This document shows positions 3,001-34,309 of a DNA stretch of 64,000 nt, in pieces. Numbering within the stretch: position 1 is the first letter of the stretch; each line of letters opens with the position of its first letter. The stretch lies in the NCBI RefSeq assembly GCF_002215035.1, contig NZ_NKFP01000006.1:2447080-2511079 (forward strand). Direction: 5' to 3'. The notes beneath the pieces were generated by a model. That model was given only the letters and a program-made list of their open reading frames with translations. It ran no database searches and had not been told where the DNA came from. The position numbers and the translations under genes were made by a program. Source of the stretch: Leptolyngbya ohadii IS1. Lineage in GTDB: Bacteria; Cyanobacteriota; Cyanobacteriia; Elainellales; Elainellaceae.

Positions 3001-4260
3001 TCCGGTGGCTCTGGAAACGGCGATGGTTCTACGAATAACGGCGGCGGTATCCTGACCAACAACAACACTCCTTCTATAGGAGGCGTGGTCGAACCGGGCA
3101 GCACGATCGAAGTTCTGGCAAACGGTCAGCCTGTCAGGGGAAATGTCACCCTCAACGGCGATGGTACCTGGAAATTCGTCCCCGAAACACCTCTGCCCGA
3201 TGGCACTTACAAAGTCGTCGTTAAGGCAACCAGCGCCAGCGGTGGAGTCGTTCTTTCCCCGGAGAGCACACTGACCATTGACACCAAACCTGCAACGGTC
3301 ACGATCGTCGATACCCTGTCCGACCTGCGCGATACGACCACCAGTTCCCTTACCCTCAAATTTAGCGAGGCGATCAAGAACCTCGACGTTGCTGACCTCA
3401 ACCTGACTCTAAACGGTCAACCGATCGACCTCAAAGGAACAACCCTCACCCAGAAAGATGCTCAGACCTGGGTATTAGGCAATCTGCCCCAGTCCGCTGC
3501 GCCCAGCGGGGAATACAAAATCGCTGTTAACCGCAGCGACATCACCGACCTGGCAGGCAACCCGCTCAGTTTTGGCGCGATCGACGGCTGGATTACGGGC
3601 TACACAGCCAACGCTACCGCCATGCCTCCGGTCAAAGGTAAGATCGGAATCCGCATGACGGGTAACGAAGGCAACAACGGCATCAGAGGCACCAAGCTCA
3701 GAGATGTCCTCCGTGGCATGGACGGCAACGACAGACTCCTCGGCGGCAAAGGCAACGACAGGCTTGTAGGCGGCAGAGGCAATGATAGACTCGGCGGCGG
3801 CAGAGGCGATGACAGACTGATTGGCGGCAACGGTCGCGATCGGCTGAACGGCATGGGTCGTCGGGACGTTCTGGTGGGCGGTAAAGGCAACGACAGACTC
3901 GCAGGCGGCGGTGGCGATGACCTTCTGCAAGGCGGAGTGGGTCGGGATCAGCTCATCGGGGGCGGCGGCAAAGACACCTATGCCATGAACAATGTCTCTC
4001 ACCGGGGCGATCTGGTTATCGGCTTCAGTGCCAAGGACGACCTCATCGATCTGCGCGGCATCATGCAGGCACAGCAGTACAAGGCAGACAACCGCTTTGC
4101 CCAGTACTATCAGTACGTGCAACTGGCACAGGTGGGCAGCAATACCGAGGTTCGCATCGATCGCGATGGCAGCGGCAGCGGCACCACAATGACCACCCTG
4201 ATGACCTTACAGGGAATCGCCGCTAATACAGTTCAATCCTCGAACTTTGTGATTGGCTAA
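1..4260 (+). CDS. Giant DUF4347 / Ig-like repeat / RTX surface protein, 5' partial
   Basis: The reading frame is open from the first base of the window, so the true start lies upstream. Counting from base 4, residues 1-150 match a DUF4347 domain (motif YSCNVAAGDAG). Residues 160-450 form a Gly/Thr-rich beta region. At least five Ig-like repeats follow (about 450-980), each opening with an Asp-Thr-Gly turn and a TPTF-like strand. A Gly-Ser linker (985-1005), two more Ig-like units and RTX calcium-binding nonapeptides (about 1220-1320, GNDRLLGGKGNDRL type) lead to a short C-terminal region. RTX proteins of this kind are usually exported by type I secretion and bind calcium outside the cell. An adhesin or sheath role is inferred. 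No ABC exporter gene is present next to it in the window. Confidence 0.85.
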   Translation, partial: SLVVVDANVDDYQSLVRGISSEYDVLVLESSQDGVQQITKALNDRPTIESLHIIAHGAPGTLFLGNTTLSLQTLDRYSWELQSWSIQSLGLYSCNVAAGDAGAEFVEKLHALTGAGISASTKLFGAHNLGGNWELDTAIGKGAEPLAIAPDVMNAYNHVLELPAARSAEVSGNVFLGGNYIELGLRPDGAFNTTVAKPTGFFGAMGSGVGMSVDLDGFGAGTVNPGDYFMPGTPEERWVIGYRIGGTTVRASNGNGAADIANTVANTSSGSTLSAVSTGTHNSRLQIVQEYSFNEGDKFFKNTVTLTNVSTDALDSVRYMRSFDPDNPVNFGGAYATLNTVLATVAVDGYALVAAKAAPGDPAIAATGSEVPVFFYSSDPRAVGSYFGFANTDPYAAQAYDSPVARGVSATGDTGMTIAFDVGTLAAGQSTTFVYYTSLDPRPISEVLGSINSLDLVDESDTGISPTDNVTGDTTPTFGGSLPTSAAGDTIKIYADDVLVGSGTVGADGKWSVTTSILGEGERKITSTRTSGGTESAPSAPIYITIDTIAPDAPTAPFRLAAVDDTGISDSDGITTETNSLLFSGTLTAAEEGFRVKLYKGTTLLGEATVGTGGAWSVTTNVALTEGSNAITYTITDKGGNTSAPSAELPIVVDTSAPTIDPTAKPDLQSTSDNGTSDTDDKTNLTNLTFEGTLTPADAGSKVKIFDNGNLVGEGTVTDTGAWTVNATGIGVGSRSITYKVMDPSGNESGESAALTVEVSTAKPTLPTGEGISSQPDLTAASDTGESDSDDLTGDNTPTFTGQFSSAEAGFTITIYNGDVAVGTGTVDEDGFWEVTTDALDNGDLSIRYTVTDLFGNESDPSDELLIRMDAILPATPEFVPDLIGASDTGKDQTDNITADNTPTFSGTGIAGQIVRIYDGDTKVGEGIVDSEGNWSVTTSVLEAGNRSITSTLVDPITGNESLRSPALTITLDPTAVITPVIQGIDNGSGGSGGSGGSGGSGGSGNGDGSTNNGGGILTNNNTPSIGGVVEPGSTIEVLANGQPVRGNVTLNGDGTWKFVPETPLPDGTYKVVVKATSASGGVVLSPESTLTIDTKPATVTIVDTLSDLRDTTTSSLTLKFSEAIKNLDVADLNLTLNGQPIDLKGTTLTQKDAQTWVLGNLPQSAAPSGEYKIAVNRSDITDLAGNPLSFGAIDGWITGYTANATAMPPVKGKIGIRMTGNEGNNGIRGTKLRDVLRGMDGNDRLLGGKGNDRLVGGRGNDRLGGGRGDDRLIGGNGRDRLNGMGRRDVLVGGKGNDRLAGGGGDDLLQGGVGRDQLIGGGGKDTYAMNNVSHRGDLVIGFSAKDDLIDLRGIMQAQQYKADNRFAQYYQYVQLAQVGSNTEVRIDRDGSGSGTTMTTLMTLQGIAANTVQSSNFVIG

Positions 4261-4418
4261 GCAGCTAGCTAAGCGACTGGCTAAGTAATTAGTTAAATCA
4301 TTGGTTGCTTGTAATGGGCTGATAATCAGCTAATTCGAGTCCTCTAATTCGCGGTTCGATCGAATAAATGACGGTTCGCAGATCATAGTTCATAGATTAC
4401 GTTTCATCAATTACAACT

Positions 4419-4441
4419 GGGGCGCAAGCCCCTTTTTCTTT
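4419..4441 (+). terminator. Rho-independent terminator after the RTX protein
   Basis: A GGGGC stem with a GCAA tetraloop and a GCCCC arm is followed by TTTTTCTTT, about 160 bases after the stop at 4260. The rest of the 364-base gap before the amine oxidase is AT-rich. It begins with degenerate GCTAAG-type repeats just after the stop codon and shows no other gene. Confidence 0.8.
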
Positions 4442-4624
4442 GCCGATTTGTCGCAGGTTCCTTTTTTCCTATCTCCACCAGGAAAAGCCTTTCTTAAAAC
4501 TCGTAATGACAGATACAAAACAGGCATTGGGATTGATTTAGCTTAGTCAGCATTGCGATAAGAACCCGATCCTATCCCCCAGACTGGTTCTCATTTTGCT
4601 GACGTTTTAAACCACTCCCCTTTT

Positions 4625-6571
4625 ATGACCGCCATCTCTCATCCCCCGACGTCCACCGCTTCACCTTCCACTGTTCATCCGCTAGAGCCACTCGTCGCAG
4701 CAGAGATTTTAGCGGCGTTGGAAATTCTCAAAGCGCAGCAGACCCTCAGCAATCGCGTCCGGTTTATCTCCATCACCCTGCACGAACCGCCCAAAGCTCT
4801 GGTACTCAGCTACGAACCAGGAATGCCCTTCGAGCGGGAAGCCTTTATCATTGTGCTAGACAACACCACAGGCAACACCTACGAGGCGATCGTTTCCCTC
4901 ACCAGCCAATCCGTGACTTCCTGGAAACACATTCCCGGCGTGCAGCCACCGATCGCCCTGGACGAATTTTTTGACTGCGAAGCGGCAGTAAAAGCCAATC
5001 CCGAATTTCAGGCAGCCGTCCGCAAGCGGGGCATTGAGGACATGGATCTGGTCTGTGTCGATCCCTGGTCTGCCGGAGTCTACGCTGACGACCCGGAAAG
5101 AGACCAAGGGAGACGGCTCCTACGCGCACTCTGCTGGGTTCGCAGCAATCCCACGGACAACCTCTACGCCCACCCGATCGACGGTCTGACGATTATCTTT
5201 GATCTCAATTCGCTGGAAGTCGTGCGAGTCGAGGATCATAGGGTCATCCCCATTCCCCAGGAAATGACCAACTACACCACGGAATACGTCGCAGACCTCC
5301 GCAAAGACGTTAAACCGCTGGACATTACCCAGCCGGGGGGAGCCAGCTTTGAAGTGCGAGACGGGCATGAGATTCGCTGGCAAAAATGGCGAATGCGGAT
5401 TGGCTTTACTCCCCGCGAGGGACTGGTGCTGTACACCGTTGGCTACGAGGATCAGGGGCGAGTCCGTCCGATTCTTTATCGGGCTTCCCTGGTAGAAATG
5501 ACCGTGCCCTACGGCGATACCAACATTACCCAGTGCCGCAAAAATGCCTTTGACGTAGGCGAATACGGCGTCGGTACGCTGGCAAACTCCCTGAAGCTGG
5601 GCTGCGACTGCCTGGGCGAAATCCGCTACTTTGATGCGGTGATGGCAAACACCAGCGGCGAAATCGTCGAAATCAAAAATGCCATTTGTATGCACGAAGA
5701 AGATTATGGCATCCTCTGGAAGCATACCGACTGGCGCACCGATCAAGTGGAAGTCCGGCGATCGCGTCGCTTAGTTCTCTCGTTTATTGCCACCGTCGGC
5801 AACTACGAATATGGCTTCTTCTGGTACTTCTATCAGGACGGCACGATTCAGTACGAAGTGAAGCTAACGGGCATGATGACTACGGGAGCCGTAATGCCGG
5901 GAGAAAAGCCTGCCTACGGAACGGAATTAACGCCCCAACTTTATGCACCGAATCATCAGCATGTTTTTTGCGTTCGGATGGATATGTCGATCGACGGGAT
6001 TCACAATTCCGTTTACGAAGTTGATACCGAAGCCGTTCCCATGGGTGAAGCCAATCCTTACGGAAATGCGTTCTACGCAAAATCTACGCTGTTGTCTACA
6101 GAACAGGAAGCACAGCGGCTCATCGATCCGTTTAAGGCACGCTACTGGAAGATTGTGAATCCCTCTGTGCAAAACCGCATGGGCTATCCCGTCGGCTACA
6201 AGCTCGTCCACGGCGAAAACGGCTTACCCTTTGCCCATCCCGAATCCAGCGTCATGCAGCGGGGCGGCTATATGACCAAACATCTGTGGGTGACGCCCTA
6301 CGATCCAGAAGAGCGATTCCCGGCGGGCAACTATCCCAACCAGCATCCCGGCGGCGACGGCTTGCCCCGATGGACGCAGGCAGATGAATCTGTTGAAAAT
6401 ACCGATCTCGTGGTCTGGTACACCTTCAACCACAACCATATTCCCCGCTGCGAAGACTGGCCCGTGATGCCCGTGTCCTACATTGGCTTTATGCTGAAGC
6501 CCGTCAACTTCTTCGACCTTAATCCCTCCAACGACGTGCCGCCCTCCCCCTCCAAGCACAAATGCCATTAA
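4625..6571 (+). CDS. Copper-containing primary-amine oxidase
   Basis: Copper amine oxidases convert primary amines, O2 and water to aldehyde, ammonia and H2O2 using a self-made topaquinone. All key residues are visible. The topaquinone precursor is Tyr394 in the NYEY motif. The catalytic base is Asp310 in NAFDVGEYG. The copper ligands are His444 and His446 (HQH) with a third His in HNH near 603-605. The length of 648 residues is normal for the bacterial family. There is no obvious signal peptide, so a cytoplasmic location is likely. The protein begins with a Ser/Thr/Pro-rich stretch of about 20 residues, and the ATG has no strong ribosome-binding site. The substrate cannot be read from the sequence. 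The stop overlaps the end of the convergent J-domain gene by four bases. Confidence 0.95.
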   Translation: MTAISHPPTSTASPSTVHPLEPLVAAEILAALEILKAQQTLSNRVRFISITLHEPPKALVLSYEPGMPFEREAFIIVLDNTTGNTYEAIVSLTSQSVTSWKHIPGVQPPIALDEFFDCEAAVKANPEFQAAVRKRGIEDMDLVCVDPWSAGVYADDPERDQGRRLLRALCWVRSNPTDNLYAHPIDGLTIIFDLNSLEVVRVEDHRVIPIPQEMTNYTTEYVADLRKDVKPLDITQPGGASFEVRDGHEIRWQKWRMRIGFTPREGLVLYTVGYEDQGRVRPILYRASLVEMTVPYGDTNITQCRKNAFDVGEYGVGTLANSLKLGCDCLGEIRYFDAVMANTSGEIVEIKNAICMHEEDYGILWKHTDWRTDQVEVRRSRRLVLSFIATVGNYEYGFFWYFYQDGTIQYEVKLTGMMTTGAVMPGEKPAYGTELTPQLYAPNHQHVFCVRMDMSIDGIHNSVYEVDTEAVPMGEANPYGNAFYAKSTLLSTEQEAQRLIDPFKARYWKIVNPSVQNRMGYPVGYKLVHGENGLPFAHPESSVMQRGGYMTKHLWVTPYDPEERFPAGNYPNQHPGGDGLPRWTQADESVENTDLVVWYTFNHNHIPRCEDWPVMPVSYIGFMLKPVNFFDLNPSNDVPPSPSKHKCH

Positions 6572-7536
6572 TAATCCATACCACGCCTTCTTTCCTCTCT
6601 TTCTCGCCGTGCCTTTTCCTCTGCTTCTTTTTCTCGCATCGCTTGCAGCAGAAAAAATCTGTCTCTTGGTGAAAGGCTTCTGATGAAATCATCGGTAATT
6701 GGCTTGACCAGTAGAGACCTAAAGTGTGCAATGCGCGATAATCTCTGCTGTTTCAGTTGAGATAGGCGGTCATTTGCTCTGTTTGTACAAGCCCGAATCG
6801 CATCGCAATAAGCTCGACTATAGCTGGACTCCTTCACTACTTGCCGTAAGTAATAGAAAAAGACCAATAATGTCAATGCTCCAATTGCTAGCACATAGAG
6901 TTTGAATCCCTCTCTAAACACAATTCCCGACGCTCTGTACATCCTGAAGTGAACTTCAAGCGTGTATGAAACCATCAGTGCAAAGACAAATGTTGGAACA
7001 GCAGAAGAAATCGCGATGGAGATTGGAACAAGGATGAGCAACGCAAAAGCGCTGCTAATCTTACCTCCCTGGGTCTGAGGATATTTCTCACCAGGTTTGT
7101 GGTTTGGCAGTTTTCCGAGATAACTTGCGTATTGCGCTTCTACAGCCTGAATGCAAATGCTACAGTCCCTCTTAATAATGGCTTCTTCTTCGCGTAATTC
7201 TGCTGCGATCGCGTCCATCTCAGCCTGGGAAAACCGGACATCGATTTGAGTACCCGTCCATTGATAGGAGGTTTGAGGGACTGCTGGCGAATCAAACTTG
7301 TCGAGCTGGCGATCGTATTGTCGTCTCTTTTCTGGGTCGCGCAGTACCGCATAAGCCTGATTCAGGCGTTTCATTTGCTCCTCGGTTTGCCCTTTGCTCG
7401 CAGTTGAGTCATGGGGCATCTGGATGTCTGGATGGAAGACTCGCGCCAGCTTCCGGTAAGCTTGCCTAATATCTTCAGCAGAAGCATCTCTAGAAACCCC
7501 CAGAATTTTGTAGTAATTCTGATCCTGTTTCGGCAT
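6568..7536 (-). CDS. Membrane-anchored J-domain (DnaJ-like) protein
   Basis: Residues 5-75 are a J-domain: the YYKILGVSRDAS start, a helix with QAYRKLARVFHPD containing the essential HPD that stimulates Hsp70 ATPase, and the closing LRDPEKRRQYD. There is no G/F-rich region and no zinc-finger domain, so this is a type III J-protein. Two hydrophobic segments (about 160-195 and 205-230) suggest a membrane anchor. The C-terminus is strongly charged (EKEAEEKARREREERRR). It probably recruits a DnaK to a membrane site; the client is unknown. The gene is convergent with the amine oxidase (4-base overlap) and divergent from the carbonic anhydrase gene. Confidence 0.9.
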   Translation of the reverse strand: MPKQDQNYYKILGVSRDASAEDIRQAYRKLARVFHPDIQMPHDSTASKGQTEEQMKRLNQAYAVLRDPEKRRQYDRQLDKFDSPAVPQTSYQWTGTQIDVRFSQAEMDAIAAELREEEAIIKRDCSICIQAVEAQYASYLGKLPNHKPGEKYPQTQGGKISSAFALLILVPISIAISSAVPTFVFALMVSYTLEVHFRMYRASGIVFREGFKLYVLAIGALTLLVFFYYLRQVVKESSYSRAYCDAIRACTNRANDRLSQLKQQRLSRIAHFRSLLVKPITDDFIRSLSPRDRFFLLQAMREKEAEEKARREREERRRGMDY

Positions 7537-31424: not shown

Positions 31425-32290
31425 TACTTTTACCTTAACTGACTTTTACCTTAACTGATAAGTGAAGAGAAGAGATTACTCGGAGCGGCGGTGCAGACTC
31501 AGTGTAAACTTGCCCGATCTTGAAATACCAGGCGATCGAAACTTTAAGCGATGAGGAGGGCTTGAAGTCGAATGCTGCTAATTGCTTTCGATAGATTTAA
31601 TATATCCTGAATTCCCCAAAGGGCAATCACCCGATCGGTTCCTCTTGACGAAGGATAACATTAGGCATTCTGCATGACCCTGTCCTCCTAACAATACATT
31701 TGTCCAGTAAGACAAGCGATCGATCTCCTGCAAGGAAAATTCCCCTCTGAACCTGTGAATCGATCGTCCTGTTTGCCGCGAAAGCCCCATATACAAAAGC
31801 TTTGAGACTGCTACTCTGGGTTGGCTGCTCCCTTGAAAAATCAGCTCAGAATTTGAGACAAGGCTCTCCGAATCACATCACTTGAGGCTCTCCTCTCGCT
31901 GCTTTTCAGGGAAAGCACTAAAAATTAGACCTCCACATATAGCGTGTTCTTTCCCTCATACTCTAGCAGCCACTCAATTTGTAGCAGGATTTTTCCCACC
32001 TGAAAACTTTTGCTTGTCTCAGATCAACTTCTGCCTAAAAAAGACAGCGATGCCTTGGCAGGTCTTCCTTTGAGCGTGAGACAAACTCCTCTGGATCTCA
32101 GCACGATCGTCTCTGGATCAAGTCACTTTTCCTCCAGATCCCCTCACCTTTGCTTTTTAAAGCCCTGATTTTATAAGGCTTTCAGCTACCTGAGACAAGC
32201 TTTAAACAGATCGATCAGATCGATCCTGAGACAAGCAAGACTGAGACAACCCTGGCAAAATGATCGCGATCGTTTTAGCCGAGGTCCAGT
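31425..32290. other. Intergenic region upstream of the primase-like gene
   Basis: No certain gene in these 866 bases. A 72-codon minus-strand frame (31578-31796) is not supported by motifs. The right half carries the TGAGACAA repeats listed separately. Confidence 0.5.
31854..32251 (+). repeat. Iteron-like TGAGACAA motifs, six copies
   Basis: TGAGACAA plus two bases occurs at 31854, 32077, 32191, 32227 and 32242 on the plus strand, and inverted at 32012-32021 (GCTTGTCTCA). Three of these share the ten-base form TGAGACAAGC. The last three copies crowd within 60 bases, just before the predicted start of the primase-like gene. Confidence 0.65.
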
Positions 32291-34309
32291 ATTACCGCAT
32301 TCGCTGCCACAGAAGCGTTTCGCTATATTGCCGAGCAGGAGGACGAATTTCTCGCCCTGTTCCCCCATCGGTTTGACTTTATTTATGCCGACCACCCTGA
32401 CCCTTCCCAATCCCCTCACTGGCGCACTGAGAGCCGCTATCCCCTTTCCGATCGTTTGATTCTTGAAGGCTCATCTCTCTATGGGGTGCGGTTTACCTCC
32501 CAAACTCGCTACTGTCTCCTGGACGTTGATGCAGGGAGTGCCTATCACCCCCAGAAAGATCCTTTCGCGATCGGGCGGATTATGGCAGCTCTGGAGCCTT
32601 TAGGCTTTACGGTTGGAATTGCGGGTCAGTCGAGCTATCGGGGCGGGATTCATCTTTATTTGCCGTTTGAGAAAGCTCAGAACTCTTGGGAACTTGCCGC
32701 CTGTCTGTCTACTCTGCTGGAGAATGCAGGGTTTAAGCTCAAACCAGGACAGCTCGAAGTTTTTCCCAATCCCAGACCCTTTAGCAGTAACGGTAAGCCT
32801 GCGTTATTTAATGCCCACCGTCTCCCGATGCAGGCAGGTTTTTATCTACTCAATGAAGATTTTCAGCCGATTTGGAGCGATCGATCGACCTTTGTCAAAC
32901 GATGGCATTTTGCCGCATCCCGCAACACAGTCACCACAAAACTGCTGCGTCAGCTCCTTAAACAGCACAAACGTAGACACTATCGAATTTCTGGCAAAGC
33001 GGATAAATTTTTGAACGATCTGGATACTGAGATCGAACAGGGTTGGACAGCCTACGGACAAACCAATCGCCTCCTGGGACGAATTGCCCTGCGAACCTAT
33101 ATTTTTCATCATGTCATTCAGGGTGGAGACCCCTTAACCGGACAGGCATTAGTAGATCAGGTAGTTGCCGTTGCCCGATCGCTTCCTGGATATCAGGACT
33201 GGTGCAGACATCAGCATGAGATTGAAGACCGTGCCGTAGAGTGGGCAAGATGCGCTGAGGCAAGCCGCTACTTTCACTACACCCATCGCAGTGCGGTTCA
33301 AACAACCTGTTCTAACAGCAGATCTGAGAATCCTTCGATCGATCGTCTGACTGCCTGGAATCAGCAACAGTCTCAGACAACGCGAGAAAAGATTTGTAGT
33401 GCGATCGCAGATCTGCTCGAAAGCAACCGCTTGCCTGCAAAACCTACGGCTCGGTTTCAGGCACTGTTGCGCTATGGCATTGGTGGAGCTTCTCTCTACC
33501 GTCATCGTGATCTCTGGCATCCCAGCGAATCAGGTAAAGAGTCAGGTGAATCGAATGAATTTATTGAATCTAATACTAAATTCAATGAATCTGTGGAAAA
33601 CTTGCCTTCTGTGGAAAACCCCCCGCACCCCCCAACTTCATCTTCAGCTAGACCGTCCGATCAACTGGATGCAGGATCGGACGGTCTTAGCTGTACAAGC
33701 TTATTCCCCGGTAATGGCAGTAATATTAATCAGAGTCAGGCTTCTAGCGACCGGACACCTTCTCAGACCACCAATCAAATTCAGCAAGTCGAACATTCGT
33801 ATCAGTCACGTCTACATCATTACCTCAGCTCAGGCGATCCGATTTTGGTTGCAGAGGCAAAACTCTGGCAGCGTTCCGATCGAACGAGTCAATCCCGCAA
33901 TCAATTGCATAACTCATTTCGTAACCAATCTGCCGTTCCGACTGCTGTTCCGACTGCTGTTCCTTCTGTTGATCCTTTTGATGATCCGTCCGCTGCACAG
34001 GAATTCTCTCCGTCTGTAACCTCCTCTACTTTGGTTTCCACGTCTGTTCAACTTGAGGCTTCGACTTCTAGTCCGCTCCCAACCCATTCTCCCCCACGTT
34101 TCTTTTCCTGTTCGCAGGATGTATTGCGGGATATCCCCCAGGATCTCTCCGATTTGCTGGCAGCGATCTCTGTTCAGCTTCGACGACTCCACTGGACCCA
34201 CAGTGAAATCCGCGATCGCCTTATGCAGCGATACCGTAAGTTAAGCCGTGCAATGCTGACCCAGGATGAATTGCTCGACTGGCTAAACTGGCTGAAATCC
34301 CAGAAATAG
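32291..34309 (+). CDS. Archaeo-eukaryotic primase-like protein, probable ATT start
   Basis: The frame is clearly coding upstream of the first ATG/GTG/TTG at 32456: residues RYIAEQEDEFLALFPHRF and SESRYPLSDR-like segments lie between 32321 and 32455. An in-frame TAG stands at 32276. The only start with a ribosome-binding site is ATT at 32291 (GAGGT five bases upstream), giving 672 residues. Primase-type motifs are a DxD pair (Asp78/Asp80, LLDVDAGSAYHP), a small-residue/His motif (His121, SSYRGGIHLYLPF) and Glu156 in QLEVFPNPRPF. A helical region with ALLRYGIGGASLYRHRDLWHP follows, then a Ser/Thr/Gln-rich low-complexity stretch (about 410-600) and a C-terminal HTH-like helix set. Its role in replication, repair or a mobile element is unknown. 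Confidence 0.75.
   Translation: MTAFAATEAFRYIAEQEDEFLALFPHRFDFIYADHPDPSQSPHWRTESRYPLSDRLILEGSSLYGVRFTSQTRYCLLDVDAGSAYHPQKDPFAIGRIMAALEPLGFTVGIAGQSSYRGGIHLYLPFEKAQNSWELAACLSTLLENAGFKLKPGQLEVFPNPRPFSSNGKPALFNAHRLPMQAGFYLLNEDFQPIWSDRSTFVKRWHFAASRNTVTTKLLRQLLKQHKRRHYRISGKADKFLNDLDTEIEQGWTAYGQTNRLLGRIALRTYIFHHVIQGGDPLTGQALVDQVVAVARSLPGYQDWCRHQHEIEDRAVEWARCAEASRYFHYTHRSAVQTTCSNSRSENPSIDRLTAWNQQQSQTTREKICSAIADLLESNRLPAKPTARFQALLRYGIGGASLYRHRDLWHPSESGKESGESNEFIESNTKFNESVENLPSVENPPHPPTSSSARPSDQLDAGSDGLSCTSLFPGNGSNINQSQASSDRTPSQTTNQIQQVEHSYQSRLHHYLSSGDPILVAEAKLWQRSDRTSQSRNQLHNSFRNQSAVPTAVPTAVPSVDPFDDPSAAQEFSPSVTSSTLVSTSVQLEASTSSPLPTHSPPRFFSCSQDVLRDIPQDLSDLLAAISVQLRRLHWTHSEIRDRLMQRYRKLSRAMLTQDELLDWLNWLKSQK

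Follow-up and report, generated by a model that had tools for sequence, protein, structure and literature searches.

In the cyanobacterium Leptolyngbya ohadii IS1, a gene for a predicted archaeo-eukaryotic primase-polymerase (AEP) lies in a stretch of 64,000 nucleotides (the window; positions 2,447,080 to 2,511,079 of NZ_NKFP01000006.1, a 4.26-Mb contig), and its translation very probably starts at a rare codon, the ATT at window positions 32291-32293 (+). The gene (32291-34309, +; 672 residues) belongs to a cyanobacterial plasmid-type family in which AUC or AUU recurs as the start codon at the aligned position. Its sequence, and analogy with known systems, make it probable that the family encodes a plasmid-type replication initiator or primase that is kept scarce by this conserved start.

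A conserved AUC or AUU start codon

The open frame runs from 32279 to 34309 on the plus strand, behind an in-frame TAG at 32276-32278, and closes with a TAG whose last base is 34309. The first ATG, GTG or TTG in it is the TTG at 32456, and ATT 32291 is the sole candidate start with a Shine-Dalgarno sequence (SD), GAGGT at 32281-32285 (+), 5 nt before the ATT, where homologues have GGAGGTG-N4-ATC. An earlier sequence-only reading of this DNA had the frame, the bounding TAG, the lack of canonical codons before 32456 and the spacing of the GAGGT exactly right, and translation from ATT 32291 puts D78, D80, H121 and E156 at the positions that it had given. At E<=1e-3, 54 of 60 relatives have a homologue, in some cases matched through the C-terminal domain only. 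Against the homologue L009, the window gene has a nonsynonymous divergence (dN) of 0.15 and a synonymous divergence (dS) of 1.5, the latter near saturation, giving dN/dS of about 0.1; by these measures it is a conserved gene under purifying selection.

The choice of ATT as the start is borne out by the homologues. From 151 non-redundant sequences with complete 5' ends, four with a damaged or mis-framed 5' end were set aside, leaving 147. They begin just 5' of FRYxxExxDEFLALFPHRFDY, a short variable leader being followed, in the paralogues and most relatives, by F-x-Y-V-x-E-x-D-x-F-L-A-L-F-P-H-R-F-D-Y, and thus start where the sequence-only reading had predicted, near RYIAEQEDEF. At the aligned position 32 of the 147, from 26 genomes and including the window gene, carry ATC (29) or ATT (3). 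This group was chosen by an ATC or ATT start plus an SD, and none of its members has ATG, ATA, GTG or TTG at the start column; its alignment consensus is GGAGGTG-N3-T-ATC-G-[TC], with the SD near-fixed. Between the upstream stop and the start codon, 24 of the 32 have not a single ATG, GTG or TTG, and in 24 of the 32 an in-frame stop lies at most 12 codons upstream. L019 and L144 have an in-frame TGA within the SD itself; in L154 the TGA ends one codon ahead of the ATC.

In 18 of the 147 homologues, the stretch between the upstream stop (sought up to 60 codons back) and the point 14 codons ahead of FPHR is free of canonical starts, and 16 of these show an SD of at least 5 nt with ATC, ATT or ATA in the expected 9-codon window; the remaining two (L086 and L150) carry an ATC too, behind a weaker SD. 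In control windows inside the same genes, an SD with ATA, ATC or ATT occurs in 40 of 4,998 cases (0.8%). The binomial P is tiny, but the homologues are not independent, and we therefore place weight on their diversity (26 genomes, many genera) rather than on their count. The strict pattern GGAGGTGNNNNATCG occurs at 10 places in the window genome and at none of them opens a long frame that lacks a canonical start, so that the motif does not characterise this genome in general.

Other branches of the family, for example L027, L093 and L098, do have an ATG at the equivalent position or close to it. On a quick FastTree tree of the core, the AUC/AUU start requires 19 changes; it is clustered (none of 500 shuffles was as low) and limited to a single large clade of some 100 sequences, within which the start has repeatedly switched to or from ATG, GTG or TTG. 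A one-clade origin, which had been expected, was not found. In L074, L172, L003 and L068, an ATC or ATT directly precedes an ATG at the start column (L074 reads GGTGTAGC-ATC-ATG), and it is possible that such start regions are intermediates between AUC/AUU and AUG starts.

An AEP fold

The protein is almost certainly an AEP with a predicted catalytic activity, as sequence and structural modelling agree. The residues Asp78/80, His121 and Glu156, which the sequence-only reading had taken for primase motifs, do not vary in any of the 147 homologues and correspond to motif I (DxD), motif II (GxH) and the acidic motif III. Searched against the PDB, a profile built from 44 homologues matched CAPP Prim-Pol (E 0.002) and the LigD polymerase domain (E 0.047). 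For the primase part, the window protein on its own drew no useful match from Pfam, NCBIfam, PHROGs or PADLOC; among other family members, some are matched by the Pfam families Prim-Pol (best E 3.8e-4), LigD_Prim-Pol (3.7e-4) and AEP-TOTE (9e-6). A first AF2 model, made with three sequences, had a pLDDT of 39.6 and was not taken into the structure search. A model of residues 1-330 made with six sequences had a pLDDT of 74, and about 90 over residues 71-160. The structural comparison with AEP primases that had been suggested for this protein identified CAPP as the closest solved fold (Foldseek E 4e-6; VIA Z 14.9, 4.1 Å over 190 residues), followed by LigD and Prim-PolC (Z 9-10), the RepB' catalytic domain (6.6) and pRN1 ORF904 (5.1).

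On the basis of the invariant residues, profile and model, the catalytic domain would span about residues 1-231 (32291-32985, +). Farther on lies a conserved segment, WNQQQ...LYRHRDLWHP (33356-33523, +). The sequence-only reading had associated its LYRHRDLWHP block with replication proteins; the block is conserved, but it belongs to this separate C-terminal segment outside the primase core, whose sole sequence match, to the SlmA DNA-binding domain, is not significant. The segment is perhaps a helix-turn-helix. The low-complexity linker of the gene contains a near-perfect inverted repeat, AGACCGTCCGATC...GATCGGACGGTCT (33651-33688). Linker and C-terminal domain together (33767-34306, +) match NF058667 at 58 bits, under its cut-off of 100, and this last third of the protein resembles the slr1353 family, with isolated matches to query residues of about 550-675 in many genomes. 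The slr1353 family, with which this C-terminal domain is shared, is a separate chromosomal protein family found in most of the cyanobacteria sampled.

Plasmids and the DNA upstream

Where the family occurs, and what lies upstream of its genes, makes it rather likely that it is a plasmid-type replication initiator or primase. A tblastn search found the family in 66 plasmid records; no relatives came from a tblastn search of phage records or from an initial scan of IMG/VR. On plasmid3 of L. boryana (13,170 bp), a family gene lies near ParA and ParB, and no other gene on this plasmid is a plausible replication gene, since the remainder encode transposases, an IstB-type protein and a single small hypothetical protein. 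The family is also present on pSYSG of Synechocystis 6803, whose Rep has been called unknown (PMC10899382). There (L196, NC_005231.1) the homologous frame at 3953-5683 has a GTG behind AGGAG, and the annotated coding sequence SGL_RS01225 begins about 357 bases inside it; farther downstream, at about 6286-7446, follows another homologue, which is more distant. The complete plasmid1 of Leptolyngbya NIES-3755 (L198, AP017309.1, 5001-6866) has the same design of SD and ATC, and in its record BAU15885.1 is started at a GTG that lies in the conserved FSYVNEW block, 12 codons downstream of the SD-supported ATC.

The AUC/AUU-start genes are preceded, at a distance of about 160-230 bases from the start, by repeats of the type TCCGtATCnnnTCACT, typically three at a spacing of 21-22 bp, with single copies further upstream. 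In the window, three iteron-like repeats TCnrGATCnnnTCACt begin at 32090, 32112 and 32133 (32090-32148, +; 22- and 21-bp spacing), the first of them degenerate, and the motif scan found a further single copy, TCCGAATCACATCACT, at 31867-31882 (+). Between these repeats and the start, relatives have a palindrome, CAGTCTGATCAGACTG, at the place where the window has TGAGACAAGC repeats flanking GATCGATCAGATCGATC (32189-32251, +). Next comes CTGGCAAAATGA (32249-32261, +), which contains an out-of-frame ATG at 32260 and looks like a promoter -10 region; relatives have YCTGrCAnaAT, CTGACACAATAG and others. The iteron-like motif was found 104 times in 30 upstream regions of the group with AUH starts (H = A, C or T) vs 19.6 times in shuffled sequence, and 120 times vs 70.5 expected in 114 regions of the other homologues, an excess that is partly built in since the motif was derived by eye from the same sequences. 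The position and phasing of the repeats across genera are the stronger argument. The repeats are absent from L199. As a whole, the upstream anatomy has the look of an iteron replicon. Seven tandem repeats of 44-47 bp lie directly upstream of the ATG of a relative on an IMG/VR contig (L276, 3403-3785), which looks plasmid-like rather than viral.

Several known systems come close to this family without coinciding with it. CAPP of Marinitoga has the closest solved fold, with motifs I-III in alignment, but it is CRISPR-associated and only about 17% identical, whereas the primase family is plasmid-borne or stand-alone. RSF1010 RepB' and pRN1 ORF904 likewise place an AEP domain on plasmids, but the structural match is weak, their C-terminal parts differ, and the primase family has no recognised helicase domain. 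CyRepA and CyRepX, plasmid Reps of cyanobacteria (PMC10899382, PMC10079941), resemble the family in being multi-copy replication proteins found on both plasmids and chromosomes; they are described with DUF3854/DEXD helicase-type domains, whereas the primase family carries an AEP domain and is present on pSYSG.

Control at the first codon

That translational control might act here had been thought conceivable from the single gene, and the conservation of the rare start strengthens this idea. To our knowledge, very few conserved starts other than ATG, GTG and TTG have strong support, namely those of infC and sigR. infC starts at AUU or AUC and is under autocontrol by IF3 in E. coli and other bacteria, and sigR of Streptomyces has AGGAGGTG followed by a GTC start with GTT as its only alternative, is repressed by IF3 and has been misannotated (PMC5472188). 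The primase family shares with sigR an extended SD (AGGAGGTG in sigR) directly before a start other than ATG, GTG or TTG, the retention of this start across species with only the third base varying (GTC/GTT in sigR, ATC/ATT in the primase), and misannotation to canonical codons. They differ in that sigR encodes a sigma factor and uses GTC, and in that IF3 repression is shown for sigR and would apply to the primase by analogy. With infC the family shares the AUU/AUC codon itself, but infC encodes IF3.

By analogy with these systems, ribosomes would begin translation at ATT 32291, where the SD positions them, and the mismatch of the start codon behind a strong SD would make initiation weak and slow. 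IF3 should discriminate against such initiation, leaving the primase scarce and its synthesis dependent on IF3 activity; whether control of this start is indeed IF3-sensitive we consider evenly poised. In an iteron replicon, a scarce initiator would set the copy number, and a low dosage would be useful. The family would then act as the replication initiator or primase of many cyanobacterial plasmids; it also occurs in chromosomal copies such as that in the window, whose role, if any, is likewise putative.

A second gene for IF3 offers another possible link. When the main infC genes were checked for AUU/AUC, nearly all proved to start at ATG, but there is a second IF3 (infC) paralogue of about 165 residues (TIGR00168 infC, 145 bits) in 106 of 388 sampled cyanobacterial genomes, which itself appears to start at ATC. 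Of 28 copies examined, 24 lack ATG, GTG and TTG and have ATC (once ATA) near the aligned position after a GAGG(A)-like SD. In the window genome this paralogue lies at G000:C1:41769-42248 (+), and the other loci are L233-L240 and L242-L275. It is present in 17 of the 26 genomes with AUC/AUU-start primases vs 19 of 55 with other homologues (Fisher p 0.016, ignoring kinship), a co-occurrence that is only suggestive. Perhaps the second IF3 and the primase family form a small IF3-responsive gene set defined by AUC/AUU starts, in which two IF3s compete and thereby tune the initiation of plasmid or plasmid-like replication, but we regard this scenario as speculative and improbable. The literature searched, mostly without subscription journals, described neither the second IF3 paralogue nor replication genes of cyanobacteria that start at AUC.

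Alternative readings

Several observations weigh against a plasmid initiator kept scarce in this manner. The main infC being at ATG, classical infC autocontrol is not seen in these genomes. The four paralogues in the same genome all have canonical starts, the window copy is chromosomal and flanked by housekeeping genes, and its SD is GAGGT only. The 13-kb plasmid of L. boryana has no direct repeats upstream of its family gene. Finally, the AUC/AUU trait is scattered on the tree and may have become so by repeated loss or by swapped 5' ends.

The best-surviving alternative, which we hold to be less probable though worth serious thought, is that AUC/AUU is the true start and merely a weak one, the initiator being passively scarce without regulation by IF3. 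Low initiator levels by themselves would suit a plasmid Rep, relatives with ATG, GTG or TTG starts exist and are presumably functional, and nine of the 26 genomes with an AUC/AUU-start primase lack the second IF3. However, we count the E. coli and Streptomyces cases (PMC5472188) against a passive codon, and the near-fixed strong SD of the AUC/AUU-start primases resembles that of sigR.

It is somewhat less likely again that the protein is an AEP for DNA repair, damage tolerance or defence, with its plasmid association incidental. Such a function would fit with CAPP and the LigD polymerase domains as nearest solved structures, with the many chromosomal copies of the family and with the failure to recognise a helicase domain in the protein. 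The 66 plasmid records, the proximity to ParA/ParB on a 13-kb plasmid and the iteron-like arrays argue in favour of plasmid replication instead, and known defence proteins and phage families gave no match.

A canonical start, either TTG 32456 or ATG 32260 joined to the frame through a frameshift or sequencing error, is very improbable. These are the sole canonical codons nearby, and some relatives have a usable GTG or TTG 3-12 codons downstream of the ATC/ATT position. However, the TTG lies inside conserved sequence, and since a start there would remove the whole FPHRFDY block, the true start must be upstream. ATG 32260 is unconserved (L009 and L010 have aatagg and aataaac at its position) and sits in the promoter-like stretch, so that there is no support for an indel that brings it into the frame. 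Moreover, 12 homologues, the window gene among them, have no canonical codon either upstream or downstream before FPHR. That the gene is a decaying pseudogene with a lost start can practically be dismissed, for although multi-copy mobile-type families often decay, and L119 and others have in-frame stops, the window gene has 672 open codons, a dN/dS of about 0.1, all catalytic residues and the same rare start as 31 relatives.

Implications

The family supplies a candidate for the replication protein of pSYSG and other plasmids whose Rep has been reported as unknown, and standard annotation can truncate or mis-start its members, as on plasmid1 of NIES-3755. The type of start-codon control that we propose is already known, but its employment by a widespread family of plasmid primases appears to be new. 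If true, this would be a new use of the start-codon switch, in which a plasmid initiator is limited at its first codon.
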